From the NCBI RefSeq assembly GCF_032714615.1, contig NZ_JAWDKA010000004.1, positions 62,001 to 126,000 of the forward strand: a DNA stretch of 64,000 bases. The letters are read 5' to 3'. The translations under genes were made by a program, and so were the position numbers. The DNA is from Methanorbis furvi. GTDB taxonomy: Archaea; Halobacteriota; Methanomicrobia; Methanomicrobiales; Methanocorpusculaceae. Positions 1,053 through 57,653 of this stretch are shown here, piece after piece; position 1 is the first letter of the stretch; every line of letters starts with the position of its first letter. The notes under the pieces were generated by a model. That model ran no database searches and was not told where the DNA came from. It saw only the letters and a list, made by a program, of their open reading frames with translations.

Positions 1053-1056
1053 TTTT

Positions 1057-1656
1057 TATAATAGGAGTTACGCGGTGTACTGTTGAGTAATGAAGTGTTG
1101 CCTCGCGAGAAAAAAACCGCCACGGATTCACACGGATTCCAAATTTGCCAATCGTCATTATCTTGCGTTCGGTCGGGACTCCGGCTAATCGCCTCCGTCC
1201 TTTTCGACCTCACTGGATAATGACTGGCAAATTTTTTCGGTTTTTTGTTGAGTGGTACATGTGGCTTTATTTGAAAAAAAAATCAATTGCAGATTCACAG
1301 AGATTGTATTTTCGGAAGAGTGGGCGTGAGTGAAGTAAGAAAAAATCACACTCGCCACTTCAACAAAAAACCGAAAAAAATTTGCCAGCTGTTATCCAGT
1401 GAGGGCGAAAAGGACGGAGGCGATTGTCCACGTGCTACGCACGTGAGACGTCTCACGAGGTCATAGACCTCGTGGACATTAGCCGGAGTCCCGACCGAAC
1501 GCAAGATAACAGCGATTGGCAAATTAAACATCTGTGTGAATCCGTGGCGGTTTTTTTTTCTCGTAGTTCCCACTCACCACTAACCCGATCAACATTTTTC
1601 AGAAAAAAAAAACGGATAAGTTTTCCTTGACATCACACCGCGTAACTCCTATAATA
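1057..1656. mobile_element. family A fold-back element, copy 1, with target duplication
   Basis: The element spans 1064-1649 (586 bp). It begins GGAGTTACGCGGTG and ends with the exact reverse complement CACCGCGTAACTCC. It is flanked on both sides by TATAATA (1057-1063 and 1650-1656), a 7-bp apparent target-site duplication, although that sequence is AT-rich and nearly palindromic. The interior is a long imperfect inverted repeat: the arm at about 1110-1260 pairs with about 1350-1560, both carrying 'tttgccag', the 'cggaggcgat' block and 'cggtcgggactccggct'. There is no credible coding region; short open frames inside are by-products of the palindrome. A 527-bp near-copy lies at 57113-57639. 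It fits a MITE-like non-autonomous element. Confidence 0.85.
1426..1477. mobile_element. 52-bp palindromic insertion nested in family A copy 1
   Basis: Compared with the sister element at 57.1 kb, copy 1 has an extra block that begins GTCCACG and ends CGTGGAC. It contains two hairpins (CACGTGctacgCACGTG and CACGAGGTCataGACCTCGTG) around the palindrome GAGACGTCTC. ATT occurs on both sides (1423-1425 and 1478-1480) and once in the empty copy, so the block looks like an insertion with a 3-bp duplication. Confidence 0.75.
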
Positions 1657-1713
1657 AATAAAATTACATTTTTCAATACCACTGTGGACCCCGAGGCGCG
1701 AAGCGCCGAGTGC

Positions 1714-4683: not shown

Positions 4684-4938
4684 TTAACGTTCGTCGCAGC
4701 TCCGCCCACGATTCGCATGCCTTCGGCCTGCTCACTGCTTTGCAGCTCCGCCCACGGAAAAACAGAACACACGGAAAAACATCACGGAGCAGACGTGAAC
4801 ATCACGGAACTTGCATCTGAAACAATATTTCTGTGACGCCACGAAAATAATTCATTTCCGTGATGTTCACGTCTGCTCCGTGATGTTTTTTTCCGTGAAA
4901 TTCCGTGTGTTCTGATTTTCCGTGGGCGGAGCTGCGAA
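4684..4938. mobile_element. family B fold-back repeat, copy 1, with a family C core inside
   Basis: This is an intergenic inverted repeat. The left arm carries gcagctccgcccacgg, gaacacacgga and cacggagcagacgtgaac; the right arm carries the reverse complements in order and ends ccgtgggcggagctgcga. The block GCAGCTCCGCCCACG occurs twice (4696-4710 and 4742-4756) around a 31-base family C core (4711-4741), as if that core had inserted with a 15-bp duplication. It fills the gap between two convergent genes. Confidence 0.8.
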
Positions 4939-4954
4939 AAAATCGCAAAAAAAA

Positions 4955-7300
4955 TCAGGGACTCTGGCCCTGGAACATCACCGCAAACCGCGTGACAAGA
5001 GCAGCGAGGATAAAGTATCCGAGCAGAACATGCACCAGAGAAAAGAGCATAGGAATGTATCCCAGATTCTTCGTTGCAATATCGGTGATACTGAAAAGAA
5101 TCATCGTCGTCTGCATGAATCCCATTACCGGCCCTGACGTATTTGCAAGAAGCGGCACAGGATCAATACCGCTCGGCGTCAGCGCAGGCAGAACAGGCAC
5201 AACATACAGATACAGGAACGTGAACACCAGATTCAGCAGGATGAACGCTCCGACAATCGGCCAGGTCTTACTGCCGTAGTCAGAGATTTTCCAGAAAAGT
5301 TTCACCGGCAGGTTCACGAACACCGACTCAAAGACCTGAACAATACCTTCAAAAAGTGTCCGGACAGGTTTCTCGGAAAACCGTTTCTTCCACTGATCGG
5401 CTCCTGACGATGAAGATGAGACAAAATTTCTCAGCCTTGCAGCGACCGAAGAGTTTTCGGGAACGTACGGCTGCTTGATCTTTGGAAGCTCGGGCTCTTC
5501 GGGAACTCCTGCCTGCCTGCCGATCCAGCGGAGAATTTTTTTCTCGGCATACCACTCGCCCCACCAGATCTTGCGGATATTGCGAAGAAGTCGGGACTGA
5601 AGTTTCGGATCGACTCTCGCGGCTGATATGCCCACACCGGTAAAGTCGGTGTTGCCGTCAATCGCACACTTCGCAATAACGGTCCTGCCGTCAACACTGG
5701 CAAGGTAACAGGTCGTACCGAACAGCGTTGCGTTGCGGAATTTTACGCCTTCGAGGTACGCCTCGGAAAGATCAGCGCCGGTAAGATCAGCACCGGAGAG
5801 GTCAGCCTCCTTGACGTCAGCCTCGCGAAGGTTTGCCTCGACAAGTTTCACCCGCCAGAGAACTGCGTCCTGCAGGTCGGCCTGTCTGAGATCAGCCTTG
5901 GTCAGGTCGGCTCCTTCAAGCCTTGCCTCTTCGATCACGGCATTTCTGAGATCGCATCTTGACATTTTTGCTCCCCGCATCTCAGTACGCATGAACGTTG
6001 CGTTTCGCAGATCAGCAGCAGTCATGTCAGCGCCATCCATCACGGCACGACGGAAGTCGGTGTGTTTTGCAGAGACACCGCGAAGAACAGCTCCTGAAAG
6101 AAGGGATGCTTCAAAATTTGCGTTGTCAAGCCGGCATCCTTCCATGTTCGCCTGAGTCAGATCAGCTTCGCCAAGGGCAGCGCCCGAGAGATTTGTTCTG
6201 ATAAGCGTGGTCTCGCGAAGTGTTGCTGCCCGCAGATGTGCGCCAACTAAATCAGCATCGGTGAGGTTGGCATTTTTCAGATCGGCCCGGTCAAGTTCAG
6301 CGTCATGGAGGTCAGCACGGAGAAGGTTTGCGCCGATAAGTTTTGCGTCGGAGAGGTTGGCACGGGAGAGTTTTGCGCCGTCAAGTTTTGCCTCCGTAAG
6401 ATCTGCGTCGCAAAGATTCGCCTCGCGGAGGTCAGCTTCGCTGATCTCTGCTTCGGTAAGTACTGCGCCTGAAAGATCTGCTTCATAGAGATTAGTTCTG
6501 AGAAGGACCGAGTAGGAGAGGTCTGCGTCCCTGAGAACGGCAAGGCCGAGTTTTGCTCCGCGCATTCTGGCACTGCCGAGTTTTGCACCGGAGAGGTCAG
6601 CCTTGAACAGGTCGGCTCCTTCAAGGTTTGCCTCGCGAAGATCTGCACCGGAAAGGTTTGCTTCGCGAAGGTCAGCGCCTGAAAGGTTTGTCTCACGAAG
6701 GTCAGCGCCCGAAAGGTTCGCCTCCCTGAGGTCGGCTCCTTCAAGAACTGCGATGCTGAGTTTTGCACCGGAGAGATCAGCTTTGAACAGGTCAGCTCCT
6801 TCGAGGTTTGCTTCCCTGAGGTCGGCATCGCAAAGGTTTGCTGCTTTGAGATCTGATTCGACAAGGTTTGCTTCCCGCATGTCAGCACCGGAGAGGTCAG
6901 CTTCATGCAGGTCTGCTCCGGTAAGGTTTGCACGAAAGAGTGAGGATTTGGCAAGGTGTGCACGGGCGAGTGAGGCTTTTTCCAGATTGGTTTTGTAGAA
7001 GTTGGCACGTTCCAGCCATGCGTCCCGAAGTTCGATGCCTTTGAGGTTGAGTTCTGCGAGGCCCGCGCCTTCGAGGCGGACACCATGATCTCCGGCGCTA
7101 TCGTAGACGGTGTCGTGAAGTCCTGCACGATCCATCCAGATGTCTGAGCCTGAAATGGATTTGAGTTCTTCGACGACGGCGAGGTATGGTTTGTTCCACT
7201 CGCTGAGGTCGCCGGTCTTTGCGCAGTGAATCAGCCGGTTGTACTGGTTTTGATCGAATCCCGGTCCGGGATTCTCCGGACATCCTTCTCCCTCTCCCAT
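4955..7300 (-). CDS. pentapeptide-repeat protein with C-terminal two-helix pore-like membrane domain
   Basis: Of the 781 residues, about 82-545 are almost unbroken A(D/N)LxxA pentapeptides (for example LSGADLREANLSGADLREA), which would form a long right-handed quadrilateral beta helix. After a basic linker come two hydrophobic helices, TWPIVGAFILLNLVFTFLYL and LFSLVHVLLGYFILAALVTR. Between them lies a re-entrant-like stretch, ILFSITDIATKNLGYIPM, in the place where two-helix K+ channels carry TVGYG; the canonical filter is not intact. By analogy with pentapeptide-channel fusions this is a membrane protein with a large cytoplasmic rod. Channel activity is an inference and may be lost. The start ATG has GGAT a few bases upstream. 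It is divergent from the small gene at 7389, and its long repeats create many spurious antisense open frames. Confidence 0.85.
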   Translation of the reverse strand: MGEGEGCPENPGPGFDQNQYNRLIHCAKTGDLSEWNKPYLAVVEELKSISGSDIWMDRAGLHDTVYDSAGDHGVRLEGAGLAELNLKGIELRDAWLERANFYKTNLEKASLARAHLAKSSLFRANLTGADLHEADLSGADMREANLVESDLKAANLCDADLREANLEGADLFKADLSGAKLSIAVLEGADLREANLSGADLRETNLSGADLREANLSGADLREANLEGADLFKADLSGAKLGSARMRGAKLGLAVLRDADLSYSVLLRTNLYEADLSGAVLTEAEISEADLREANLCDADLTEAKLDGAKLSRANLSDAKLIGANLLRADLHDAELDRADLKNANLTDADLVGAHLRAATLRETTLIRTNLSGAALGEADLTQANMEGCRLDNANFEASLLSGAVLRGVSAKHTDFRRAVMDGADMTAADLRNATFMRTEMRGAKMSRCDLRNAVIEEARLEGADLTKADLRQADLQDAVLWRVKLVEANLREADVKEADLSGADLTGADLSEAYLEGVKFRNATLFGTTCYLASVDGRTVIAKCAIDGNTDFTGVGISAARVDPKLQSRLLRNIRKIWWGEWYAEKKILRWIGRQAGVPEEPELPKIKQPYVPENSSVAARLRNFVSSSSSGADQWKKRFSEKPVRTLFEGIVQVFESVFVNLPVKLFWKISDYGSKTWPIVGAFILLNLVFTFLYLYVVPVLPALTPSGIDPVPLLANTSGPVMGFMQTTMILFSITDIATKNLGYIPMLFSLVHVLLGYFILAALVTRFAVMFQGQSP

Positions 7301-10483: not shown

Positions 10484-10856
10484 CGCGAGGAACGCTAAGA
10501 ACGCGAATAGCACGAATAGCGCGAATAAAAAATCGCCATTGGCAATTTTTGAAAATTTACTAAAAAATATTTCAAACAGATTTTTTTGTTCCAAAATGTA
10601 GAGAGAATTTTTTTTGAAAAATCGTCATTGGCGATTTTCGAAAATTTACTAAAAAATATTTCAGACAGATTTCTTTGTTTCAAAATGTAGAGAGAATTTT
10701 TTTGAAAAACCGCCATTGGCAATTTTTGAAAATTTACTAAAAAATATTTCAAACAGATTTTTTTGTTCCAAAATGTAGAGAGAAATTTTTTTTAATTCGC
10801 GCTATTCGCGTTATTCCGCGAAGCGGTGAGCAGGCCGAAGGCATGCGATTCGCGTT
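10484..10856. repeat. family C repeat with three tandem 88-90 bp units
   Basis: Outer ends are 'gcgaatag' iterations on the left and their reverse complement plus the core (gaagcggtgagcaggccgaa) on the right. Between them are three tandem units starting at 10531, 10621 and 10709. Each has a palindrome like ATCGCCATTGGCAATTTTT followed by about 70 bases (gaaaatttactaaaaaatat through ccaaaatgtagagaga). Copies differ at a handful of positions. The gap lies between two convergent genes and encodes nothing credible. Confidence 0.85.
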
Positions 10857-12476: not shown

Positions 12477-12640
12477 CCATAAACTCGTTTATTGGCAACT
12501 AACGTTTGTCGTAGCTCCGCCCACGGAAAAACGGAACACACGGAGTTTCACGAAAAAAAAACAACACGGAGCAGACGTGAACATCATGGAAATATTTTTT
12601 TGAGTAGGAGTTTCGTGATGTTTTTTTGTGGACGACTCGG
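12477..12640. mobile_element. family B fold-back repeat, copy 2 (right end truncated)
   Basis: It starts ccataaactcgtttattggc, then aactaacgtttgtcgtagct, identical for about 45 bases to the copy at 17538. The ccgcccacggaaaaacggaa arm and cacggagcagacgtgaacat follow, then a partial right arm (ttcgtgatgttttttt). The outer right arm is missing. Confidence 0.75.
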
Positions 12641-17537: not shown

Positions 17538-17770
17538 CCATAAACTCGTTTATTGGCAACTAACGTTTGTCGTAGCTCCGTCCAGAGAAAAACGGAACGT
17601 ATGCCTGTTTACTGTTTCGCAGATTCACAGGAATACACGGATATTTTCAGCATCACTACGAAACGAAAACATCACGAAAATATTTTTGAATTTGAGTTCC
17701 GTGATGTTCACGTCTGCTCCGTGATGTTTTTTTTCTGTGAAACTCCGTGTGTTCCGTTTTTCCGTGGGCG
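17538..17770. mobile_element. family B fold-back repeat, copy 3
   Basis: The left end is identical over about 45 bases to the copy at 12477; the right arm reads gttcacgtctgctccgtgat and then gaaactccgtgtgttccgtt, ending ccgtgggcgg. The centre has diverged. It occupies the gap before the HMA-domain gene. Confidence 0.78.
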
Positions 17771-17873
17771 GCAAAACCTGACAGACAAAAACGGTATCTC
17801 CAAAGAAACTACCTCTCCTCAGAGTCACTTTTTGCATTATAACACTCGAACGCCAATATCACTGCAGAGCATC

Positions 17874-33953: not shown

Positions 33954-34086
33954 GTCAGCTCCATTTTGATCACACCAGTATGCACACGTGACCGAAATTT
34001 TCGTTGCCGAATTTATCGGTTGTTAGGATATAAGAGTGTAATGGTTTTGCGGGGCTTTATGTTGGATTATTACCAAATAGTAGAGT

Positions 34087-34479
34087 ATGACTCTTACAGG
34101 CCGCAGCATCTCAAAAGGTGTCGGAACCGGCGAACTTCTCTATACCGATACGCCGATCTCCTTCCTTGGCGGTGTCGACGCGAAAACCGGCATAATTATT
34201 GATCAAAAACATCCTCTGCACGGCAAAACTATCGCAGGAAAAGTTCTTGCATTTCCGTACGGGAAAGGATCAACTGTTGGATCGTATGTGATGTATGGTC
34301 TGGCGAAAAATAATGTCGCGCCGGCAGCGATCATCAACACCGAGTGCGAGACGATCATTGCGATTGGTGCAATCATCTCCGGCATTCCGATGGTTGACCG
34401 GCTGAACGGCGATGCTGCACAACTTTCCGGAGTCGTTACGGTTAACGGCGACACCGGCGAAGTGTCTGCCGCACAATGA
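34087..34479 (+). CDS. phosphomevalonate dehydratase small subunit (AcnX small, DUF126)
   Basis: With the large AcnX subunit this protein dehydrates phosphomevalonate to trans-anhydromevalonate phosphate in the archaeal mevalonate pathway. The 130 residues match DUF126: GRSISKGVGTGELLYTDTPI, GIIIDQKHPLHGKTIAGKVL, and the active-site loop FPYGKGSTVGSYVMYGLAK, with the conserved catalytic Ser in this loop. The large subunit is not in the window. Its stop overlaps the radical SAM start (ATGA). Confidence 0.88.
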   Translation: MTLTGRSISKGVGTGELLYTDTPISFLGGVDAKTGIIIDQKHPLHGKTIAGKVLAFPYGKGSTVGSYVMYGLAKNNVAPAAIINTECETIIAIGAIISGIPMVDRLNGDAAQLSGVVTVNGDTGEVSAAQ

Positions 34480-35576
34480 TTGCGGTCTGGCGTTACACTC
34501 CTGCATCACGAAACAGCTACGCGGTTTTGTATGCTGCCTGCGAGCAGTACGGTTTCATCCTTGAACCGGTCGATGCGCCAAAAGGCGACATCGTCTGCTA
34601 CAGTGTAAACAGTGTGGAGTTTTCCCGCTGTAAAGATGAAATCGCATCTGCTGATCAGATTACAATCTCCGGCGGTCCTCATGCTTCTGCCGAGTGGGAG
34701 GAGGTTGCCGAAGTTGCCGACTATGTTATAGTCGGCGAAGGAGAGCGAACGCTACCTCGTCTGCTCTCCGCACTTTTTTCAGGAAACTCCGGTGAGGGAA
34801 TTCCGGGCGTTGCAACGAAAGCAGGCCTCACTCGAATTGATCACTCTGTCCGCCTCGACGGTTTCCCCTGTTTTACGCGGATGAAGGGTTACATGGAGAT
34901 TTCCCGTGGCTGTCCGTTCCACTGCGGCTACTGCCAGACGCCCAGGCTTCACGGAACAAAAATGCGTCACCGGTCACGCGAGTCGATTGTGGAGGTGGCG
35001 AGCAATTACCGCGACGCACGATTTGTGACGCCGAACGCGTTTGCATATGGATCACCTGACGGCAGAACGCCTGACGTGGAAAAACTGGAGCGGCTGTTGT
35101 CGTCGATGCCGAAAAATCATCTCTACTTCGGAACATTTCCCTGCGAAGTGCGGCCAGAGTTTGTGAGCCGCGATACTGCGGAACTTGTGGTCCGGTACTG
35201 TGCGAATACGAAACTCCACTTCGGCGCCCAGTCCGGCTCAGACGCAGTTCTCGAAAAAATGGGACGCGGCCACACGCTTGCCGATGTGTATGCGGCGCTT
35301 GATGTGTGTAAAGCAGTTGGTCTTGAGCCGGTCGTTGATGTTATCTTCGGATTTCCTTTTGAGACCGATGAAGATGAAGAGGCAACGCTTTCACTCGTGA
35401 AGGATGTTGTCAGGTTCGGCAAAGTCCATGTTCATTACTTAACGCCGCTGCCGGGAACTCCGCTTGCCGGTGTTCAGCCACGCGATGTAATTCCTGCGGT
35501 TGACCGGGCGCTTGGAAAACTTGCGCTCGGCGGACGCGTCACGGGGACGTGGCATGACAAGTTTGGGGACGCGTAA
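34476..35576 (+). CDS. B12-binding-domain radical SAM protein (methanogen MJ1487-like family)
   Basis: The 366-residue protein has a short N-terminal B12-binding-like Rossmann half (ADQITISGGPHASAEWEEVA, ADYVIVGEGERTLPRLL). The radical SAM core follows, with the 4Fe-4S cluster site in SRGCPFHCGYCQTPRLHG (C-x3-C-x2-C) and GAQSGSDAVLEKMGRGHT downstream. Its substrate is unknown. Members of this family occur widely in methanogens. It is translationally coupled to the phosphomevalonate dehydratase small subunit through an ATGA overlap; whether that reflects shared biology is unknown. Confidence 0.82.
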   Translation: MIAVWRYTPASRNSYAVLYAACEQYGFILEPVDAPKGDIVCYSVNSVEFSRCKDEIASADQITISGGPHASAEWEEVAEVADYVIVGEGERTLPRLLSALFSGNSGEGIPGVATKAGLTRIDHSVRLDGFPCFTRMKGYMEISRGCPFHCGYCQTPRLHGTKMRHRSRESIVEVASNYRDARFVTPNAFAYGSPDGRTPDVEKLERLLSSMPKNHLYFGTFPCEVRPEFVSRDTAELVVRYCANTKLHFGAQSGSDAVLEKMGRGHTLADVYAALDVCKAVGLEPVVDVIFGFPFETDEDEEATLSLVKDVVRFGKVHVHYLTPLPGTPLAGVQPRDVIPAVDRALGKLALGGRVTGTWHDKFGDA

Positions 35577-35591
35577 AAAAAGAAAAAAATC

Positions 35592-35999
35592 TCAGCTCTG
35601 AACAACCGTCCAGTTGCCAAGACCGGTCACCGTCACGTAATAATACTGCGTTGAACCGATATCAATCGTCACCGTCTCATCAAACGCACCGCGTTTGTAG
35701 AACGGCTGCACTACATCCGCACCATGCAGCGTGATATCCATCGTAAACGTACCCGGCCCGTCGAAGGTTGCATGGAACGTTGTCGGCCCTTTTTTCATCA
35801 GCACGCTCTGGTACTCATGCGTCCCGTATCCTGCGGCATTCAGCGTCTCATCCTCGGTCAGACCGGTTGGTGAAAACGTGGGCGTCGGTGTGGGAGTTGG
35901 CGTCGCCACAGGTTCAGGTGTATCTGGCGTTGTAACGCATCCGGCAGAAAACACCAGTCCTGCGCACACAATTAAAACTACAATCAACAGTCTCTTCAT
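35592..35999 (-). CDS. small lipoprotein
   Basis: The 135-residue product has a signal peptide and lipobox (FSAGC), a Pro/Thr linker (TPEPVATPTPTPTPTFSPTG) and a beta-rich domain ending in YYYVTVTGLGNWTVVQS. That closing strand resembles the end of modules in the lipoprotein at 2763-3824. The start is the methionine of MKRLLIVVLIV (35999); the open frame continues 27 codons upstream into the MFS gene region but is not signal-like there. Extracellular, function unknown. Confidence 0.7.
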   Translation of the reverse strand: MKRLLIVVLIVCAGLVFSAGCVTTPDTPEPVATPTPTPTPTFSPTGLTEDETLNAAGYGTHEYQSVLMKKGPTTFHATFDGPGTFTMDITLHGADVVQPFYKRGAFDETVTIDIGSTQYYYVTVTGLGNWTVVQS

Positions 36000-36030
36000 T
36001 ATGCAATCAGATTGATTTCGATGCGGATAA

Positions 36031-37428
36031 TTATTTGGATACCGTCTTCGTCTTACAGGAAAACGACAGGGCCGCAGCAATCAGACAAAAGATCATTCCG
36101 CAAAAGAATGACCAGTGCATCGCATCAAGAAATGCATCAAGGTTTGCCGCCATATCAGTAGTGGTTCCCAGATAGATTGAGATAAAACAGGTCGCCAGAC
36201 CCATGGACAGAACCATTCCCATCTGCCGCATCGTTCCGATAATACTGTTCGCACTGCCGTAATCATGGCGCTGCACGGTCCCGAGGATCATGTTGTTGTT
36301 GGGGGATGCAAAAAGCGCGACTGAAAATCCCATCACCATAAGTGTTGCAATAAGCGTTGGAAGACTTGCTTCCCTGCCAAGCTGCAAAAGAACAGCCAGT
36401 CCTCCGGACATCACCAGCATTCCTGCGGTTGTCAGATACCGAGGCTCTATTTTATCGGAAATTTTTCCTGCCAGCGGTGAAAAGATCATCTGCGTAAACG
36501 GCATCGCAACAAGCACGATCCCTGCCTCTGCCGGTGTGAGTTTTCCTGCGAACTGCAGGTACATGCTCAGGAAAAAACTGATCGCATACGTTGCTCCGAA
36601 GTTAATCACCGTTGCAATGTTGCCGCGGGTGAACACCGGATTTTTGTCGAACAGCCGGATTGCGAACACCGGGTATGCGGTTTTTTTCTCCACAAAGAAA
36701 AACATCGGCAGAAAAACACACACGCCTACTGCAAATAATCCGACTGCCCAGAGTTCAGGCAGATTGATCAGTCCGAGCACGATTGAAACGATCAGAAGCA
36801 TGTACACCAGCGTGCCCAAAATGTCATACGGCTCTCCGGCACTTTCCTGAATATCATGTGAGATGGAAAACCATATCGTCGCCAGCGAAACTACGCAGAG
36901 CAGAACAACAAAGTAAAAAATGCTGTGCCAGCCAAACATCTGCGTCAGAATGCCGCCGAGTACCGGACCTGCGGAGAGTCCGAGAAACACTGCTGACACC
37001 GCAATGCCGATCACTGCTCCGCGTTTTTGCGGCGGATACACTGCAGACAGGAGAGCAATTGAGTTGCTTGTGATTGCTGCAACTCCGACTCCTTCCAAAA
37101 TTCTACAGAGGATCAAAATTTCTATCGTGGGAGAGTGAGGGGCAAGGAAGGATGAGATCGCGAGAATAAAAATTCCTGCGAGAAATATTTTTTTTCTGCC
37201 TACAATATCTGCTACCCGGGCGGCAGGCACCATGAACACGACGGAGCTGATCAGATACGCGGTTGAGAGCATCGCCAGCGACTCGGCGGACGCGGTATAT
37301 GTTACACCGATCGATGGGATTGCGACGTTCACCATCGAACCAAGAAACGGACTGAGAAACGAGGCGAGCGCAGCAGCAACCAGTACCATCCGCATTTCCC
37401 GAATGCTGTACTGGTAAGCCGCCTGCAT
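36031..37428 (-). CDS. MFS drug:proton antiporter-type transporter
   Basis: The 465-residue major facilitator has 14-helix DHA2-like topology: LASFLSPFLGSMVNVAIPSI in helix 1, then LSTAYLISSVVFMVPAARVA, DIVGRKKIFLAGI (motif A) and GVGVAAITSNSIALLSAVYP. The conserved GISAVFLG-type GIAVSAVFLGLSAGPVLGGI motif C follows, which marks exporters. It lies next to a close paralogue at 37559-38926, with a family C fragment between the two. Likely an exporter of toxic small molecules; substrate unknown. Confidence 0.88.
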   Translation of the reverse strand: MQAAYQYSIREMRMVLVAAALASFLSPFLGSMVNVAIPSIGVTYTASAESLAMLSTAYLISSVVFMVPAARVADIVGRKKIFLAGIFILAISSFLAPHSPTIEILILCRILEGVGVAAITSNSIALLSAVYPPQKRGAVIGIAVSAVFLGLSAGPVLGGILTQMFGWHSIFYFVVLLCVVSLATIWFSISHDIQESAGEPYDILGTLVYMLLIVSIVLGLINLPELWAVGLFAVGVCVFLPMFFFVEKKTAYPVFAIRLFDKNPVFTRGNIATVINFGATYAISFFLSMYLQFAGKLTPAEAGIVLVAMPFTQMIFSPLAGKISDKIEPRYLTTAGMLVMSGGLAVLLQLGREASLPTLIATLMVMGFSVALFASPNNNMILGTVQRHDYGSANSIIGTMRQMGMVLSMGLATCFISIYLGTTTDMAANLDAFLDAMHWSFFCGMIFCLIAAALSFSCKTKTVSK

Positions 37429-37484
37429 ACTTTGTTATCGACGCGGACTCGTATAATAGTTATGAATGGGTAGAACAAATTTCC

Positions 37485-37546
37485 GAAACGCGAATCGCAG
37501 GCCGGAGGCATGCGATTCGCGCTATTCGCGTTCTTCGCGTTTCAGA
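37485..37546 (-). repeat. family C fragment between the two MFS genes
   Basis: gcgaatcgcaggccggaggc, then atgcgattcgcgctattcgc, then the gttcttcgcgttt end: the reverse-orientation core and 'gcgaatag' iterations without the palindrome units. Confidence 0.7.
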
Positions 37547-37558
37547 TTCAGATCACCC

Positions 37559-38926
37559 TTACGAACTCTTCTTCGCCGTCCAGCCAACCGCAGCCGCCGC
37601 AAACGACAGGACTGCACTCACCGCAAACGTCGCATGCATTGCAGCAACCAGTCCTACGCTTGAGTTGTTGCTGTAGAACAGAAGAATAAAGCAGGTTGCA
37701 ATTGCCATGGAGACCACCATTCCCATCTGCCTTGTCGTTGCAAGAATACTGTTTGCACTGCCGTTATCTTTTCTCTCCACCGACCCAAGAACAAGATTCG
37801 TGTTCGGTGCGCCAAACAGTGCAATACCAAAACCGACAACAGCCAGATTGATGATGATGCCAATCTGATTGTAATCGGTTCCGATAAATCCGAACAACGC
37901 CATCCCGATACCGGTCACAATAAGACCTGCGGTCATGATGATCCTCCCGTCGATTTTATCAGATAGTTTTCCGGTGATCGGAGAGAATATCATCTGCACC
38001 ACCGGCATTGCCATCATAACAAAACCTGCTTCCATCGGCGTCAACGCACCGATCTGCTGCAGATACAGACTCATGAAAAAACTCACGGCAAACGTTGCGC
38101 CATAGTTGATCATCGTTGTCAGGTTCGCTCTCGCGAACACCTTGTTCTCAGTAAACAGCCGAACCGCAAACACCGGATAGGGAATTTTCTTTTCAAACCA
38201 GACAAACATCACCAGAAAGACTGCACCTATCACCAGACTCACGATCGCTGCGGGCTCCGGGATTCTGATGAGGCCGGACATCAGAAAGAGAATGGTTACC
38301 CCGTACAGAATGGACCCCCGGAGATCAAACGGCTGACCGGGTGTTGCAATGATCTCAGACTTTACCGATACCCTGATCATTACTGCGGTCGCGAGGCACA
38401 AAACACAGACAAAGAAGTAGATGCTTGTCCAGCCAAATCCTTGCGTCAGCGCTCCTCCGATCAGCGGTCCTGCGGTAAGACCAAGATAAACTCCGGCAAC
38501 CGCAATACCAATCGCCGCCCCTCTTCTCATCGGCGGATAGGCAACCGAAAGAATGGCAATCGTGTTGCTGATAACGCACGCAAGTCCGATGCCTGCCACT
38601 GCGTGGCAAATCAGCAGCATACCAATCGAGGACGAGAACGGTGCAACAACTGTCGCAAGAGCCGTGATACAAAGACCGGTGACACACACTTTTTTCAGAC
38701 CCACAATATCGGCGAGCCGTGCTGCGGGGACGAGAAAAATTACCGAGCTGACAAGGTACGTGGTCGAAAGTATGGCGAGTGTCTCTGAAGGAACAGCGAA
38801 CGCTGCACCGATCGCCGGAAGTGCGATGTTTACCATCGCAACAAATATCGGAATGAGAAACGACGCGAGGGTTACGGCAATGAGGATGACCACTAATTCG
38901 TGTCTGGTATAGGTAGGTGTTTGCAT
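37559..38926 (-). CDS. MFS transporter, tandem paralogue of the previous gene
   Basis: The 455-residue major facilitator aligns with the protein at 36031-37428 throughout: LASFLIPIFVAMVNIALPAI against LASFLSPFLGSMVNVAIPSI, and LSTTYLVSSVIFLVPAARLA against LSTAYLISSVVFMVPAARVA. Motif A (DIVGLKKVCVTG) and motif C-like GIAVAGVYLGLTAGPLIGGA are present. I chose the ATG at 38926 (MQTPTYTRHEL), one codon after another ATG; the frame is open for 22 more codons that are not membrane-like. The pair probably arose by tandem duplication. Same orientation, so they may be co-transcribed across the repeat between them. Confidence 0.85.
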   Translation of the reverse strand: MQTPTYTRHELVVILIAVTLASFLIPIFVAMVNIALPAIGAAFAVPSETLAILSTTYLVSSVIFLVPAARLADIVGLKKVCVTGLCITALATVVAPFSSSIGMLLICHAVAGIGLACVISNTIAILSVAYPPMRRGAAIGIAVAGVYLGLTAGPLIGGALTQGFGWTSIYFFVCVLCLATAVMIRVSVKSEIIATPGQPFDLRGSILYGVTILFLMSGLIRIPEPAAIVSLVIGAVFLVMFVWFEKKIPYPVFAVRLFTENKVFARANLTTMINYGATFAVSFFMSLYLQQIGALTPMEAGFVMMAMPVVQMIFSPITGKLSDKIDGRIIMTAGLIVTGIGMALFGFIGTDYNQIGIIINLAVVGFGIALFGAPNTNLVLGSVERKDNGSANSILATTRQMGMVVSMAIATCFILLFYSNNSSVGLVAAMHATFAVSAVLSFAAAAVGWTAKKSS

Positions 38927-39292
38927 CATTATCACATCCGTCGCCGGCCGCCGCATCACGAAAACCATTCTGGCTCTCCAAAAAACCTGCATCAGTCTGT
39001 TTGCGGTTAATGGTATGCAGAAAAAATGCGTGATGCAGAACCCGTGACTGCGATCAAAACTGATCCGCGATTCGGGTATTATATTTCTCCTCAGGTTATA
39101 TCTGTATTTCTTTTAGCTCATCGCTTTGATTTTAATTTTACCGGCATACTTTCTTTATTTACGAGGTGTTTTTCATCATAATCATACTATTTCAATCACC
39201 AATGATCCAATTATCAGGGGTTCATATTATTATTTCTCAAAACGAAATTTATAGGATACACTCTCTGCATAGCTTGGGTGTAAAGAGATACA
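38927..39292. other. AT-rich divergent intergenic region
   Basis: The region lies between a leftward transporter and a rightward sensor gene. It is AT-rich from about 39080 to 39260 and holds promoter-like runs, for example aatttatagg just before the 39293 start. I see no gene in it. Confidence 0.5.
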
Positions 39293-40954
39293 ATGAACCG
39301 GAAAATTGTTGCTGGAGTTGTAGTTGTAGTTGTCCTCGCCTTTGCCGCGGTATTTTCCGCCGCATGCATCGTGCCCGGGTCTGACAATGAACTGGAAGTG
39401 AAGTATGCAGAACAGATGGATGCAGTCGTTTCCCTTGCCGACTCCATGACAAAAAATCAACTCACATACATGGATCTGATCATCCCCGGAGCCAGACTGA
39501 TCGCAAGTGATCCTGACAACATGACGCAGACAACTGCCATTCTCTCAGATCTCTACTCATCCATTCCCACCTTCACTATTGTAGCTTTTTCAAACGAGAC
39601 CGGTCATGTGGCCGCTGTTTTTCCAACAAACTATCGCGACACGGTGATTGGAAACTGGTCTGAACACCTGAACCGGTACAATACAACAAAATCCCCCGCA
39701 TTTGATATATTCAATGTAAGAGATCATTCCGTGCCCGGAATTGTGTCCCCCTGCATTTCTGACAACGGCACAACCATCGGGTACATTATCTCCATGATTG
39801 ACCCAACCTATCTCTTTGGCGAAGTAGCGGCGAAGTACGAGAATGCCTCATCCTGGCGGTACTGGGTGGTCGAGGATGATGGTCTGATCCTCTATACCGA
39901 GTATCCGAAATTGTACGGCAAAAATATGCGCAGCCTCGACACCCCTGACAGAGCAGGACTGTACCGCGTGTTTGAACTTGCTCGTGAAAATAAATCAGGT
40001 TCTGCTGTCTACACCGGTTACAGCTACAGTGATCTGAAACTCATGGACTATTTTGTAACCTGGGACACGGTCCCAATTGATGAGACCGGCGATCATAAGC
40101 ACCTTGTTATGATTACTGCCAAACTGAACGGGAGACAGAACCAGGTCCGGCCGGTGTCGTCCACTGATCAGACGCTGGAAGAGTTTGTCCACTCAGCGCT
40201 GATATTTGCAAATGATGTCGGAAAAGATGCAGCTCTTGCGGAGTTCTCCCGCCCGGACGGACAGTTCACCACAAAAGAGTACAGTGTCTTCGCCTTTGAT
40301 CGGAACAAAACCCTGCTTGCCGATGCCTACACCTACAATATCATCGGAAATTCTCTCAGCTATGTTGTTGACAGCAACGGAGTTGAAGCAGGAGATCTCA
40401 TCCACAGGCGGGCGATGCAGGGAGGAGGATATGTTCTGTATCTGTATCCGAATCCTGCAGAAAATATGACCGAACAGCTGAAACTGAGTTATATTGTTCA
40501 GGCCGACGACGACTGGTACATCGCAGCAGGTGTCTTCATAGACGACTCCAACCTGCACGTTCCAGCCGAGGTCAGGGAAAATGTCACCAGTTATCTCAGG
40601 TCTGTGCAGAAGTATGCCGGATCAGTCGATAAAGATACGGCGGTCGCAACTCTCAATGATCCAAACGGTCCCTATGCTCCGGAGGATCTGCGATTTTTTG
40701 CCATGGATTATCATGGAACCATTCTCGCAGACCCCCAGTATCCGGAGTTTGTCGGAGAAAATTATCTGGGTATGACAGATGTCTTTGGAAGCTCCATCAC
40801 CAGAGACGCGATCATTCTTGCAAAAGAGGGAGGCGGCAAACAGTATGTCTACTCCCCCAAAGAGAGAGATGAAGAAGGGTCTGAACTCAGGCTGGAGTAT
40901 GTTCTCCCTGCCGGAGATGACTGGCTGATTCTTGGTGCGGTTACAATAGAATAA
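39293..40954 (+). CDS. multi-cache-domain lipoprotein sensor without an output domain
   Basis: The 553 residues begin with a lipobox-type signal (VFSAAC near residue 24) and then run through repeated cache-like ligand domains. The first, about 60-275, resembles a double cache domain (FTIVAFSNETGHVAAVFPTN; WVVEDDGLILYTEYPKLYG). Two further single-cache modules each contain FAFDRNKTLLADAY or FAMDYHGTILADPQYPEFVG and end in DDDWYIAAGVFI or GDDWLILGAVTI. There is no second membrane helix, kinase, HAMP or methyl-accepting domain, so it is an outside binding protein held by lipid. It may present a ligand to a partner encoded elsewhere. Confidence 0.82.
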   Translation: MNRKIVAGVVVVVVLAFAAVFSAACIVPGSDNELEVKYAEQMDAVVSLADSMTKNQLTYMDLIIPGARLIASDPDNMTQTTAILSDLYSSIPTFTIVAFSNETGHVAAVFPTNYRDTVIGNWSEHLNRYNTTKSPAFDIFNVRDHSVPGIVSPCISDNGTTIGYIISMIDPTYLFGEVAAKYENASSWRYWVVEDDGLILYTEYPKLYGKNMRSLDTPDRAGLYRVFELARENKSGSAVYTGYSYSDLKLMDYFVTWDTVPIDETGDHKHLVMITAKLNGRQNQVRPVSSTDQTLEEFVHSALIFANDVGKDAALAEFSRPDGQFTTKEYSVFAFDRNKTLLADAYTYNIIGNSLSYVVDSNGVEAGDLIHRRAMQGGGYVLYLYPNPAENMTEQLKLSYIVQADDDWYIAAGVFIDDSNLHVPAEVRENVTSYLRSVQKYAGSVDKDTAVATLNDPNGPYAPEDLRFFAMDYHGTILADPQYPEFVGENYLGMTDVFGSSITRDAIILAKEGGGKQYVYSPKERDEEGSELRLEYVLPAGDDWLILGAVTIE

Positions 40955-40991
40955 CTTCTCTTTTACTGATGTTTTCCATGAAATTCTGTCT

Positions 40992-41188
40992 CCCACGGAA
41001 AAGCGGACCACACGGAGCTTCACAGAAAATAAAATATCACGGAGCAGACGAGAACATCACAGAAATAGATTATTTTAAAATTCCGTGTTGTTCACGTCTG
41101 CTCCGTGAAGTTTCCGTGTTTTCCGTTTTTCCGTGGGCGGAGCTACGATCAATGCCGAACACTGTTTGCCAATAAACGAATGTATGGG
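40992..41188. mobile_element. family B fold-back repeat, copy 4
   Basis: The left arm starts cccacggaaaagcggaccac, followed by cacggagcagacgagaacat. The right arm ends tccgtgggcggagctacgat, then gccaataaacgaatgtatgg, the reverse of the outer end seen at 12477 and 17538. It sits between convergent genes. Confidence 0.78.
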
Positions 41189-41199
41189 CAAAGCCCATT

Positions 41200-43557
41200 T
41201 TACTGTTTTTCCACACCGCGGAGATAGTGCGCAGCGGTCACGCCGCCGGATGCTATTTCTTTGATCTGTTCCTTGAGATCTTTTGGATTTTCCCCTTCAA
41301 GCACAGCGGTGTAGGCTGCCGTCATTCTTCTGATGTACTCAGGTGATCTGCCGCGGGCGTCGATTGAGATGACGTCCACTCCTGCTGCGGCAAGTCTTCC
41401 AACATGATCGATCAGACATATCTCTGCTGCGTTCAGAATATGGCCGCGGCAGTCTGCATCGGTCCGCACGCGGAAAATGCGGCCGGTACTGTCCTTCAGC
41501 GCCCATGACTGGTTGCAGCTCCGGCATCCGAGAGCGGTTGCAGGGATACAGTTCTGGGTAACCATCACCTCAAGGTTGCCCTGAACGATCACTTCGGTCC
41601 TGGGCGGGTGAGAGTATGCGGCAAGATGTTCAATGAGGGTTTTGATCTGTTTGCCGGAAAGCTCAGGCGACAGGCAGAGCTGTCGGCAGGTTTTGCCGTA
41701 CACCATTGCGGCACGGGCATTGGTGATGTTGAGTCCGGCACCGCCGTACTTGGGTATCCCTTTGATCTCTTCGGCAATACCGATGCCGTCGACCATGACC
41801 CCTGCGGCTGATGCAGGAATTTTTGCCAGAGCTTTTGCCAGCTGTTCCTCGTGAAGGATTCGCGGAAGTTTGTAGATGATCGCATGATCATAGATCTCGT
41901 CAAAACCTTCGTAGACAACCTGCGCAGCCCCCGCTGAACACGCGGTCTTTGCGCCGACAACGCTGTCGGTGTATACCTGAAGAATCGGTGTTGTCTTTGA
42001 AACTGCCGCGGTTCCTTTGTCGGTGAACGGCCGGTGGTCGCGAACCTGCGGTGTTGCAAGCAGACTCTCGCATGCGGCAAGGTATCTTCTGCGAAGATCG
42101 TTGATTGCTCCCATCGGCAGGAACTTTGACCCGTCATAGTTCATCGCAATACTGCGGATGACAAACGGTGTGCCGCCGGTCTTCTCCAATTGTTGCGCAA
42201 GCGCGTCGGCCGTGACCGGCCGCGTCTGTGCATCCTGCATCGGAGTTTCGCTGACCGCAGCAGCCCCGTGGCCGATGATCGCGAGATGTCCTTCGTCATT
42301 GATGCCGACCGTGATGTCGAGCGGGATTCGTCCCTGCCGCTGGCGGGAGATGATCGCGGCTGCCTTTCGCTCGGTCTTCATCCGGCGGGTGATCCACAGC
42401 TCGCTGCCGACGACCACATCCTCAGGCGCCGGAATTTTGTAGGCATCGCCTTCCGGGAAAATGTACGGCTCTTTGTTTAAGGCAAATCCTGTCTCACGGC
42501 CAGCGAACCGGAAGACAAGTCCGTCGCCGGTGTCAGGGATCGGGCCGTCGATTTTTACGATGACTTTGCCGCGCCGGTCGTCAATACCGTTGACGACTCC
42601 GGCATACACTCCGCGGTTGTCCGGTTTTTTGGTGTTGATGAACGCAGGCCCTTTGTCTCCGAGAAGATAGCCTTTGGTGAAGCCGCGGTTGAAGGCAAAG
42701 GCGAGGTCTTCCATGACCTCGGTCTCTGGTTGAAACTCTTCTCCTGCGGCAATGGTGTCAAGCGCATGACGGTAGGCGTCGGTAACAATTGCAACGTACT
42801 CAGGGGTTTTCATCCGTCCTTCAATTTTGAGTGCGGCAATTGGTGCATCACAGAGCTCTCCAAGGTACGGGTAGAGGCAGAGGTCGCGGGGCGAGAGCGG
42901 ATAGTTTCCCTGCGTGGCGACAACGTCGCCGTCTGCGAGGAGAGTGTAGGGTTTTCTGCACGGCTGCGCACACATGCCGCGGTTGCCGCTCCTGCCGCCG
43001 ATGACAGAAGAGAAGAGGCACTGACCCGAGTATGCGTAGCAGATTGCGCCGTGACAGAAAACTTCGAGCTCAACGCCGTACTCTTTTGCCACTTCTCCGA
43101 TCACTCTGATATCTTCGATCGGCAGTTCTCTTGCAAGCACCACGCGGGAGATGCCGTGTTCTGCTGCGAACCTGATGCCTGCGGTGTTGTGAATGGTCAT
43201 CTGGGTTGAGGCATGCAGCGGGAGATTTGGCGCAACCTCGCGTGCTGTTGCAAGCACTCCCTGATCCTGCACAAGGACTGCATCAACACCAATTTTGGAG
43301 AGAAAGATCAGATACTCGGCAATTCCTTCAAGCTCCTCGTCGTCAGCGAGTGTGTTGACGGTGACGTAGATTTTCACGCCGTTCTGGTGTGCGTAGGTGA
43401 CTGCGTCCGTGAGCTCCTCGCGGGAGAAGTTTGCTGCGTACTGGCGTGCTCCAAAGGTCTTGCCTCCGAGATATACGGCGTCCGCTCCTGCGGCAACTGC
43501 GGCTCTGAGGGCAGCGGGTGAACCCGCGGGGGCAAGAAGTTCAGGGACTTGGGGCAT
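41200..43557 (-). CDS. U32 family protein (peptidase / RNA-hydroxylation type) with C-terminal domain
   Basis: The 785-residue protein has the U32 barrel at its N-terminus (LLAPAGSPAALRAAVAAGAD, AVYLGGKTFGARQYAANFS) and the family signature EVFCHGAICYAYSGQCLFS, followed by GGRSGNRGMCAQPCR. A long C-terminal part (DUF3656-like) carries additional cysteines (CIPATALGCRSCNQSW, then DADCRGHILNAAEICLID). Some members of this family act in hydroxylation of tRNA or rRNA rather than proteolysis; the cysteine clusters fit an iron-sulfur site. Which activity applies here cannot be decided. It is divergent from the DUF424-nmd3 operon. Confidence 0.88.
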   Translation of the reverse strand: MPQVPELLAPAGSPAALRAAVAAGADAVYLGGKTFGARQYAANFSREELTDAVTYAHQNGVKIYVTVNTLADDEELEGIAEYLIFLSKIGVDAVLVQDQGVLATAREVAPNLPLHASTQMTIHNTAGIRFAAEHGISRVVLARELPIEDIRVIGEVAKEYGVELEVFCHGAICYAYSGQCLFSSVIGGRSGNRGMCAQPCRKPYTLLADGDVVATQGNYPLSPRDLCLYPYLGELCDAPIAALKIEGRMKTPEYVAIVTDAYRHALDTIAAGEEFQPETEVMEDLAFAFNRGFTKGYLLGDKGPAFINTKKPDNRGVYAGVVNGIDDRRGKVIVKIDGPIPDTGDGLVFRFAGRETGFALNKEPYIFPEGDAYKIPAPEDVVVGSELWITRRMKTERKAAAIISRQRQGRIPLDITVGINDEGHLAIIGHGAAAVSETPMQDAQTRPVTADALAQQLEKTGGTPFVIRSIAMNYDGSKFLPMGAINDLRRRYLAACESLLATPQVRDHRPFTDKGTAAVSKTTPILQVYTDSVVGAKTACSAGAAQVVYEGFDEIYDHAIIYKLPRILHEEQLAKALAKIPASAAGVMVDGIGIAEEIKGIPKYGGAGLNITNARAAMVYGKTCRQLCLSPELSGKQIKTLIEHLAAYSHPPRTEVIVQGNLEVMVTQNCIPATALGCRSCNQSWALKDSTGRIFRVRTDADCRGHILNAAEICLIDHVGRLAAAGVDVISIDARGRSPEYIRRMTAAYTAVLEGENPKDLKEQIKEIASGGVTAAHYLRGVEKQ

Positions 43558-43623
43558 AGATGACAGATATATTGGTTGTGCGAGAGGTTAAGGACTCTGC
43601 CGAGTGGGATGGATAAACATTCG

Positions 43624-43831
43624 AAACGCGAATAACACGAATAGCGCGAATCGCATGCCTCCGGCCTGCTCACCGCTTCGCGGAATAAAAAAATCGCCAA
43701 TGGCGATTTTTCAAAAAAAATTGTTCCTCATTGAATGAATTTGGGTGTCTGAAATAAGTAATATTAATATAACCATAAAATATAATCCTAAAAATCGCCA
43801 TTGGCGATTTTTTATTCGTGCTATTCGCGTT
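43624..43831. repeat. family C repeat with one enclosed unit
   Basis: The 'gcgaataacacgaatagcgc' end and the core (atgcctccggcctgctcacc, then gcttcgcgg) lead to palindrome ATCGCCAATGGCGATTTTT at 43693. About 80 unique bases follow, then palindrome ATCGCCATTGGCGATTTTT at 43794 and the reversed end. There is one unit here where the loci at 10.5 and 49.9 kb have three. Confidence 0.82.
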
Positions 43832-43924
43832 TACCAGCACTTACCCGCCGACTCAAAAATTAGCGCCCCACTTCCCAAATGCAATAATGTAATTATTGTC
43901 CGCACCCAATACATACACCAAGAA

Positions 43925-44218
43925 ATGTATCTTAAAATCCACAATATCCCGGGACAGGGTGAGGTCGTCGCAGTCTGTGACCGCGAACTACTCAATACCA
44001 CGCTCACCTGCCCTGCCTGTGACATCATCGTCGACCCAGGATTCTACGGCAGCGTACTTGCCGAAGAAGCCGCAGTCCTCGCCGCCCTCACCTCCGCAGC
44101 AAATGCCAACCTCATCGGAAAACGTGTATGCGAACTCGCCATCGCCGCAGGACTCATTGACAAACAGTGCTGCATCATGATCGGCGACATCCCCCACGCA
44201 CAAATCTACGGACTCTAA
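43925..44218 (+). CDS. DUF424 family protein
   Basis: The 97-residue archaeal protein of the DUF424 family starts MYLKIHNIPGQGEVVAVCDR at the ATG at 43925; the open frame to 43745 runs through the repeat and is not protein-like. A C-x2-C pair (LTCPACDIIVDPGFYG) and a helical C-terminus (ANANLIGKRVCELAIAAGLI) are visible. DUF424 genes commonly sit with translation genes; here it heads the nmd3 operon with 3 bases before the next start. Molecular function unknown. Confidence 0.85.
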   Translation: MYLKIHNIPGQGEVVAVCDRELLNTTLTCPACDIIVDPGFYGSVLAEEAAVLAALTSAANANLIGKRVCELAIAAGLIDKQCCIMIGDIPHAQIYGL

Positions 44219-44221
44219 ACA

Positions 44222-45319
44222 ATGACCCTCACCTCAGGATTCTGCCCCAAATGCGGAGCACCGTCGGAAAACGGAGAGCTCTGCGGAAAATGCCGCGTAA
44301 AAGACACCATATGGGTAACGATGGAACCCCGCGTCATCTGCACCTACTGCCCGACCTGCGGCTCCACCAAAACCGCCGGCCTCTGGACCGACTGCCCGGT
44401 CGACCGTGAAGAGCTCGCCTACAACCTTGTCAACGGCGCGATATCCCTGCACAAAGATCTCCGGGATATCCAGAAAGACATCCATATCATAGACCTCAGC
44501 GTCAACCGGTCCATAGCCACCGTATTTGTATCAGGAAATCTCTACGGCATGCCGGTCGAAGTCACCGAAAAGATCAAAATCGTCTGGGCGCGTGAACAGT
44601 GCGACCGGTGCTGCAGAATCTCCGGCAGCTACTACGAAGGAATCATTCAGGTGCGTGCAAACGGAAGAAAACCCACGCCCTACGAACTCCGCAGAGCTGC
44701 CGAGATCGCCTACCAGATCGAAGACCAGCTACAGACCGCAGGCGACCGCTTATCCTTCGTCTCCGACATCGACGAACAAAAAGACGGACTTGACATCATC
44801 TTCAGCTCGCAAGCGATCGGCAACGCAATCTCTGTTGACATCTGCGGAGCGCTCGGCGGCTCCTTTACCACGCACCCGAAACTCGTTGGTGAAAAAGCAG
44901 GCATCAAACTCTACCGCGTCACCTACTCAATTCGGCTGCCCCGCTTCTCCCGCGGCGACATCATCAGACACGGTCGCGACTACTTCCAGATTCTCCGCCA
45001 GACCAAAGACATGCTCTTCGTCCGCGACCTAAAGACCGGTCAGTCCCGCAACTTCCGCGAGGATGTGGATGACCCGCTTTTTGGAAACATCAGAACCGCA
45101 GAAGTTGCAACAGTCATCTACCGTGACGCAGGTATCCTGGGCGTGCTTGACCCTGTCACCCAGAAAACCGCAGAAATGCCGGACCACGCATGGATCGGTG
45201 CTGACGCCGGAGACTCTGTTTTCTTTGTGCGTGACGAAGAACAGCTGATTCCGGCAGGCAAATCCAATGAAAGTCCGCAGGATATTGAAGAGTTCACTGC
45301 CGAATCTGTCCAGGACTGA
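44222..45319 (+). CDS. NMD3-type ribosome-associated zinc protein
   Basis: The 365-residue archaeal NMD3 homologue has two zinc modules at its N-terminus, FCPKCGAPSENGELCGKCR and TYCPTCGSTKTAGLWTDC. Beta-rich domains and KIVWAREQCDRCCRISGSYY follow. In eukaryotes NMD3 is the 60S export adaptor; the archaeal form binds the large ribosomal subunit. It overlaps the next gene by 53 bases. Confidence 0.9.
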   Translation: MTLTSGFCPKCGAPSENGELCGKCRVKDTIWVTMEPRVICTYCPTCGSTKTAGLWTDCPVDREELAYNLVNGAISLHKDLRDIQKDIHIIDLSVNRSIATVFVSGNLYGMPVEVTEKIKIVWAREQCDRCCRISGSYYEGIIQVRANGRKPTPYELRRAAEIAYQIEDQLQTAGDRLSFVSDIDEQKDGLDIIFSSQAIGNAISVDICGALGGSFTTHPKLVGEKAGIKLYRVTYSIRLPRFSRGDIIRHGRDYFQILRQTKDMLFVRDLKTGQSRNFREDVDDPLFGNIRTAEVATVIYRDAGILGVLDPVTQKTAEMPDHAWIGADAGDSVFFVRDEEQLIPAGKSNESPQDIEEFTAESVQD

Positions 45320-48111: not shown

Positions 48112-48114
48112 AGT

Positions 48115-49831: not shown

Positions 49832-49852
49832 GTTCGGCATGGTATTTTGAAA

Positions 49853-50233: not shown

Positions 50234-50250
50234 CATTTTTCAAAAAAAAA

Positions 50251-51594: not shown

Positions 51595-51722
51595 AACTGA
51601 TGAAATTATTGGTGCTGAAATCATATCAAAGGTCTTGCTTGGACAGTTTTGGTTATGATGCCGGGGCTTGGGTGAAGAGAGCTGGCGATATTTTTTTCGC
51701 GGCTGCTTCACGGGGTAGCATA

Positions 51723-51800
51723 CAAAAAAATTTACAAACGAAAATTATTTTTCAAAAAAAAATTATTGATCAAAACCTGCATCACAAAAAATTTTTCAAA
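51723..51800. repeat. direct repeat flanking family A copy 3, left copy
   Basis: About 78 bases including tttacaaacgaaaattattt and ttgatcaaaacctgcatcac. They recur almost unchanged at 52383-52461, immediately on the other side of the element. Differences are mostly in A/T run length. Confidence 0.85.
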
Positions 51801-51802
51801 TA

Positions 51803-52378
51803 GGAGTTACGCGGTGGTGAATGTTTTGTACTGTGAAAAATATTGATCGAGTTAGTGGCGAGTGGGGCCTCGTGGAAAAAAGAACCGCAAATCCACGCAA
51901 ATCTCGGTCGCTTCGCTCCCTCCGCAAATCGCGTTTGCTGTTCGTCGCTCTCATCCCGCCGGATTCCGGCGGGCTCGTTGCTATCGCAACCGCGACGGCA
52001 AACGCTGGACGGCGCCATTCGGGCGCCGTCTTGTGGATGAGAGCAGATTTTATCCATATACCTGTGACTGAAAAACAACCCCCCAAACAATAAAATATCC
52101 TAATTCATGAGAAAAGCTATCCCATTTTCAAGGCGGCGCGCGAATCGCGCCGCCAGCGTTTGCCGTCGCGGTTGCGATAGCAACGAGCCCGCCGGAATCC
52201 GGCGGGATGAGAGCGACGAACAGCAAACGCGATTTGCGGAGGGAGCGAAGCGACCGAGATTTGCGTGGATTTGCGGTTCTTTTCTCCACGAGGCCACACT
52301 TGCCACTCTCCCGATCTACATTTTTCATAATGCGATACAACAGTTCCACCACCTCATACAATCACACCGCGTAAGTCC
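51803..52378. mobile_element. family A fold-back element, copy 3 (different interior)
   Basis: It is bounded by GGAGTTACGCGGTG on the left and CACCGCGTAAGTCC on the right (one mismatch to the consensus end). The interior does not match copies 1 and 2. It contains a 143-bp perfect or near-perfect inverted repeat (51866-52007 and 52153-52295) with 'cgcaaatctcggtcgcttcg' and 'ccgccggattccggcggg' blocks. An extra hairpin ggcggcgcgcgaatcgcgcc lies near 52132. It is flanked by about 78-bp direct repeats. No coding gene is evident. Confidence 0.82.
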
Positions 52379-52382
52379 AGCT

Positions 52383-52461
52383 AAAAAAAATTTTACAAAC
52401 GAAAATTATTTTTTCAAAAAAAAATTATTGATCAAAACCTGCATCACAAAAAAAATTTCAA
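52383..52461. repeat. direct repeat flanking family A copy 3, right copy
   Basis: Second copy of the roughly 78-base sequence (ttttacaaacgaaaattatt, then ttgatcaaaacctgcatcac), ending 8 bases before the stop codon of the DUF2070 gene. Confidence 0.85.
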
Positions 52462-52468
52462 AAAAAAA

Positions 52469-57017: not shown

Positions 57018-57112
57018 GCCATATAGTTAGGAGGGACGATTCAATAAAAATGTGGTATTGGATGAGGGGTGAATAGTTCTGTCCGGGTCACTCCCGGAAA
57101 TAAATTCAAATA

Positions 57113-57639
57113 GGAGTTACGCGGTGTACTGTTGAGTGATGAAGTGTTGCCTCGCGAGAAAAAAATCGCCACGGATTCACACGGATTCCAAATTTGCCAA
57201 TCGTCATTATCTTGCGTTCGGTCGGGACTCCGGCTAATCGCCTCCGTCCTTTTCGCCCTCACTGGATAATGACTGGCAAATTTTTTCGGTTTTTTGTTGA
57301 GTGGTACATGTGGCTTTATTTGAAAAAAAAGCAATTGCAGATTCACAGAGATTGTATTTTCGGAAGAGTGGGAGTGAGTGAAGTAAGAAAAAATCACACT
57401 CGCCACTTCAACAAAAAACCGAAAAAATTTGCCAGCTGTTATCCAGTGAGGGTGAAAAGGACGGAGGCGATTAGCCGGAGTCCCGCCCGAACGCAAGATA
57501 ACAGCGATTGGCAAATTAAACATCTGTGTGAATCCGTGGCGGTTTTTTTTCTCGTAGTTCCCACTCGTCACTAACCCGATCAACATTTTTCAGAAAAAAA
57601 AACGGATAAGTTTTCCTTGACATCACACCGCGTAACTCC
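57113..57639. mobile_element. family A fold-back element, copy 2
   Basis: The 527-bp element between GGAGTTACGCGGTG and CACCGCGTAACTCC is nearly identical to copy 1 (1064-1649) but lacks the 52-bp nested insertion. Its interior inverted repeat is the same. It ends 15 bases from the top6A stop. Flanks are AAATA on the left and TATCC on the right; no clear target duplication. Confidence 0.83.
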
Positions 57640-57653
57640 TATCCAAAAAAAAA

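Follow-up and report, generated by a model that had tools for sequence, protein, structure and literature searches.

MITEs that share only their inverted repeats (IR) with the corresponding IS are known from prokaryotes, including archaea (Kamoun et al. 2013, PMC3852290; reviewed in PMC10969869); archaeal MITEs have been described elsewhere, including in M. acetivorans (PMC3852290; PMC10969869). Two IS families are useful for comparison with the elements described below. Classical IS701 members are 1400-1550 bp long, with ends ---YACT-Y--YR, a consensus that is not family-wide, and a duplication of exactly 4 bp (PMC2266710). IS1634 members measure 1.5-2 kb and make AT-rich duplications of 5-6 bp, and for IS1549 and IS1634 long, variable direct repeats (8-514 bp) have been reported, with no mechanism given (PMC2266710).

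Here we analyse three loci in a window of 64,000 nucleotides, which is the whole stretch under study and corresponds to positions 62001-126000 of contig 4 in a genome of 1.85 Mb in 26 contigs (G000). We conclude that the three loci are very probably members of a MITE family, that is, non-autonomous IS derivatives. The features expected of such a family were found: TIRs (terminal inverted repeats), many dispersed copies, no coding capacity, a target duplication and a partner with matching ends. Like the archaeal MITEs already described (PMC3852290; PMC10969869), the elements are short, non-coding and multi-copy, with IS-matching ends of <20 nt and sometimes with target duplications; unlike them, they have a likely partner of the transpos_IS701_2 group and long fold-back interiors, and none of the genus genomes searched yielded an intact partner. 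The features in the window are collected in Table 1.

Table 1. Elements, ends and flanking repeats in the window (window positions)
Feature	Position	Strand	Remarks
MITE copy 1	1062..1651	+	590 bp, bounded by 16-bp TIRs; large fold-back subfamily
Left TIR, copy 1	1062..1077	+	TAGGAGTTACGCGGTG
Right TIR, copy 1	1636..1651	-	
Left target duplication, copy 1	1056..1061	+	TTATAA (one change from TAATAA)
Right target duplication, copy 1	1652..1657	+	TAATAA
Hairpin segment, copy 1	1426..1477	+	absent from the corresponding place in copy 3
MITE copy 2	51801..52380	+	580 bp, other subfamily (with L027)
Left member of 81-bp direct repeat	51721..51800	+	flush with copy 2
Right member of 81-bp direct repeat	52382..52462	+	flush with copy 2
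MITE copy 3	57111..57641	+	531 bp, copy 1 subfamily
Left target duplication, copy 3	57105..57110	+	TTCAAA
Right target duplication, copy 3	57642..57647	+	TCCAAA (relative G019: TTCAAA)

A preliminary description of this DNA had proposed that the three loci share a 14-bp end in inverted orientation. The inverted pairs are indeed present (1064-1077/1636-1649, 51803-51816/52365-52378 and 57113-57126/57626-57639), with a single mismatch in the right 14-mer of copy 2, but the true length of the end is 16 bp. When paired ends and their flanks are compared, direct repeats begin two bases beyond GGAG/CTCC, and the TIR is therefore the 16-bp TAGGAGTTACGCGGTG, with each element starting two bases outside the 14-mer. 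A start at GGAG itself was ruled out, since the matching direct repeats sit two bases further out. Genome-wide, the 14-mer has 64 matches with at most one mismatch (33 forward and 31 reverse), compared with none for the reversed control; as the preliminary description had suggested looking for, inverted pairs of ends are numerous in this genome, and matching ends occur in other genomes of the genus. The paired elements analysed number 26 in G000 and 58 across the genus loci. One candidate pair in G014 (C10:113295 and 115006) was dismissed as an element because its two ends point the same way.

The target-site duplication (TSD) is 6 bp long, sometimes 5, with the consensus TTNNAA, preceded by T-runs and followed by A-runs. 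Exact 6-bp duplications flank 17 of the 58 elements (shuffle mean 1.2, maximum 7 in 5000 shuffles); the 6-bp register was picked after inspection of the flanks by eye, and the excess over shuffles is seen only at 5-6 bp and at this offset. With up to one mismatch allowed, the count rises to 25 of 58 (shuffle mean 6.9, maximum 15), and in G000 alone exact 6-bp repeats are found at 9 of 26 elements versus 1.0 by shuffling. An exact 4-bp duplication, by comparison, occurs at only 1 of the 58. A clean short duplication is missing from roughly half of the elements; contributing causes could be decay, recombination from copy to copy and joins made in assembly. The 7-bp duplication TATAATA initially proposed for copy 1 did not hold up: a 7-bp register fits copy 1 alone among the 58 elements and is a coincidence of that copy.

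It is copies 1 and 3, rather than copies 1 and 2 as first described, that form the near-identical pair, with 522 of 531 aligned positions identical (98.3%). Copy 1 is longer by 59 bases, most of which are accounted for by its hairpin segment; the core of this hairpin, GAGACGTCTCACGAG, is found again in L095 and L173. Copy 2 has only 75% identity to copy 1 and represents a separate subfamily; its arms of 187 nt are 93% complementary, and its right end is degenerate (GTAAGTCCAG). Across the three loci, the fold-back arms in the interiors span 86-187 nt, and folding z-scores against shuffled sequence reach -28 for copy 3 and -32 for copy 2. Pfam gave no match for the open reading frames within copies 2 and 3, and coding capacity is likewise absent from copy 1, given its 98% identity to copy 3; the view that the interiors fold back and encode nothing is thus upheld. 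No Rfam family was found in the window, and the reading of the elements as RNA genes was rejected on this ground.

The search for a transposase gene bounded by the same terminal repeats led to an element that is now broken. This 1103-bp element (L020:414-1516, equivalent to G000:C4:185483-186585) has the same 16-bp ends and is flanked by a 5-bp TSD, TTTTA. Its transposase gene is the only match in the genome to the NCBIfam family transpos_IS701_2 (NF049921), with an E-value of 1e-62 and, in its broken state, 212 bits against a cut-off of 250. The gene is fragmented across different frames and interrupted by in-frame stops, and Gln replaces the conserved Glu of a WxIExxHR-like motif, which judging from the motif would be the catalytic Glu; full-length relatives keep D, D and E at the catalytic positions. 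By eye, the reading frame of the relatives would end at a stop inside the right end. G014 holds a second remnant, an N-terminal transposase piece beside the same end (TAGGACTTACGCGGTG). The sequence common to the MITEs and the IS is limited to the 16-bp end. Matches of the transposase in the PDB were confined to short stretches of pentatricopeptide-repeat proteins and were judged spurious.

Intact transposases of the same group were found outside the genus, in two further genomes from the order (L032 and L033) and in a Methanoregula MAG (L045). They score 382-395 bits to NF049921, above the cut-off of 250, and sit between TAGGACTTACGC-type ends ~1.1 kb apart; in most relatives the ends are ~1.05-1.16 kb apart. 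The TSDs are TTCAA for L033 and TTTTTT for L045, and among more distant relatives from uncultured archaea TTTTC (L048) and CAACT (L049); no clear duplication was seen in the flanks of L032, L035 and L050. The putative partner and its intact relatives thus resemble IS701 in that their transposases belong to NF049921, named IS701 family transposase. They differ from classical IS701 in being ~1.1 kb long (1103 bp for the broken copy) and, where it is visible, in a duplication of 5-6 bp; their ends are TAGGASTTACGC, and set beside the classical ---YACT-Y--YR, which is not shared family-wide (PMC2266710), they read TAGGACTTACGC / TAGGAGTTACGC. The AT-rich duplications of 5-6 bp are as in IS1634 (PMC2266710), from which the group departs in element length (~1.1 kb versus 1.5-2 kb) and in its transposase: that of L045 matches the IS1634 profile weakly (26.6 bits, cut-off 100), and no matches to this profile are listed for L032 and L033.

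Within the genus (presumably Methanocorpusculum), 10 of 25 genomes contain the exact 16-mer, its sixth base being G or C, and several of the other 15 are <80% complete; all 8 genomes searched from the sister genus lack it. One exact TIR match was found in viral contigs. None of the 25 genus genomes has a match to NF049921 above cut-off, and therefore the MITEs look orphaned in the genus, as far as incomplete assemblies allow; this limit does not apply to the finished genome, presumably of M. labreanum, in which 30 ends are seen when one mismatch is allowed and nothing matches the NF049921 family.

The paired ends, an empty site in a relative (described below) and the broken partner all support the earlier suggestion that these are non-autonomous elements dependent on a transposase encoded elsewhere. 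We consider it highly likely that they are MITEs which a DDE transposase of the transpos_IS701_2 group mobilised in trans. The DNA itself shows the ends and how many copies there are, the duplication and the preferred target, the empty site, the broken IS with the same ends and the related ends of intact relatives; the role of this transposase group is inferred from these. Because no searched genus genome has an intact partner, the link to the partner rests on the remnants and on other genera. The proposed mechanism begins with recognition of the 16-bp end TAGGASTTACGCGGTG by the transposase, which would then excise a non-coding element of about 80-1500 bp and insert it, at a stagger of 6 bp (5-6 bp), into an intergenic site composed of a T-run, TTNNAA and an A-run. 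The interiors, mostly long fold-backs, would be unrelated to the parent IS, with the ends alone in common. The source appears dead in this genome, where the sole IS copy bounded by these ends has a disrupted frame and does not encode the presumptive catalytic Glu; therefore the MITEs are probably immobile now, unless a foreign IS arrives.

Orthologous sites were compared in G019, a relative ~93% identical here. The preliminary description had called for empty sites as a check, and the copy 1 site provides one: G019 C3:92199-92248 is uninterrupted, GATTTTTTTAATAAATAAAATTACA, with a single TAATAA in place of the two flanking repeats of the occupied site, TTATAA on the left and TAATAA on the right. 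The site of the L010 element is also empty in G019, and its left flank has no clean duplication. In total, 27 G000 elements were tested against G019; for most of them, the compared part did not include both flanks. For copy 3, the uninterrupted right flank in G019 reads TTCAAA, the same as the left duplication in G000, and so the right copy in G000 has undergone one change. No empty site was found for copy 3; wherever both of its flanks could be placed in a relative, they are not adjacent there, and the element therefore lies at a rearrangement point or an assembly join. At a further orthologous site (L008:1499-1747 and G019 C6:76429-76788), the two species share TTCAAA repeats and hold MITEs with different interiors; repeated insertion into one preferred site and replacement of the interior are both possible. 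Compared with G019, window positions 34039-52449 lie in inverted orientation; one breakpoint falls near copy 2, and a second break in synteny lies at ~57074, 37 bp to the left of copy 3.

Two elements have long direct repeats in place of a short duplication. The 81-bp repeats beside copy 2 are 94% identical and lie 0 and 1 bp from its ends, and they are the only full-length copies of this repeat in the genome. In G014, a 1507-bp MITE (C11:144549-146055; L174:3304-5301, also L169) sits flush between two 249-bp direct repeats that are 92% identical; the genus genomes searched gave no further copy of the 249-bp repeat, and the orthologous site, sought in the others as a possible empty site, was not found. 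Copy 2 and L169 may parallel the long, variable direct repeats reported for two IS1634 members (PMC2266710). That the same machinery makes two kinds of duplication, usually of 6 bp and occasionally as flush direct repeats of 80-250 bp, seems unlikely to us; insertion at the junction of a pre-existing tandem duplication is another possible source. A third case, in G019, was discarded as evidence for long duplications since it apparently lies in a tandem array of ~90 bp.

The window contains other repeats as well. At 10528-10816 and 49873-50235, tandem arrays of 88-92 bp periodicity lie between genes and carry the palindrome CGCCATTGGCG; related units turn up elsewhere between genes and inside some MITEs. 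A second dispersed intergenic family, TTCCGTGATGTTCACGTCTGCTCCGTG and related sequences, has direct and inverted copies that are 81-95% alike (12477-12598, 17538-17771, 4851-4941 and 41076-41117). At 6244-6949, 15-bp coding repeat units, spaced mostly by 30, lie within a 781-aa open reading frame on the minus strand (4955-7300); the pattern looks like that of pentapeptide repeats.

Three other explanations were weighed. The very strong fold-back structure, the intergenic position of all three window copies and the L019 site, where the same element is present in both species, would suit extragenic hairpins maintained for a host function (regulatory or RNA-stability, REP- or ERIC-like) rather than mobile elements. 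We hold this to be extremely improbable in view of the empty sites and target duplications, the copy 1 site among them, and considering also that the exact ends are absent from 15 of the 25 genus genomes (some incomplete), that Rfam gives no match and that the interiors differ from subfamily to subfamily. It is also very unlikely that a transposase of another family with the same ends moved the MITEs and that the IS701_2 copy is a passenger. Such a view could draw on the lack of an intact IS701_2 transposase in the searched genus genomes, on MITE interiors with no obvious likeness to the IS, and on the IS1634 description (5-6 bp, AT-rich; PMC2266710), which fits the TSD better than the 4 bp of classical IS701. 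However, the IS701_2 copy is the sole transposase-coding element found between these ends, and the TAGGACTTACGC core is shared by intact IS701_2 elements elsewhere, several of which also show duplications of 5-6 bp; further, a frame scan of long TIR pairs in G014 (1507 and 1020 bp, both including masked stretches) and G020 (827 and 788 bp) found no long open frame.

A more limited alternative, which we regard as unlikely, is that misjoining of repeats during assembly accounts for part of the structure seen at copies 2 and 3. In its favour, the genome consists of 26 contigs, the segment inverted relative to G019 has copy 2 at one of its ends, and copy 3 has a breakpoint ~37 bp to its left and flanks that are not adjacent in the relatives where both were located; against this, a misjoin inside copy 3 would not give the matching 6-bp duplication (TTCAAA, by way of the G019 right flank).

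As MITEs with a putative IS701_2 source, the elements form a family that is ordinary in kind, a well-supported conclusion; what is new is the detail of duplication size and the orphaned state. Our literature search found no published TIR or MITEs in Methanocorpusculum, and this would be a large MITE family in a genus with none described. The family is tied to a small IS group with a 5-6 bp TTNNAA duplication that departs from the 4-bp rule of classical IS701, while the long flush direct repeats offer a lead on the unexplained long duplications of IS1634-like elements. Across several species, the MITEs seem to outlive their transposase source, and their pattern of presence and absence may serve as a strain marker.
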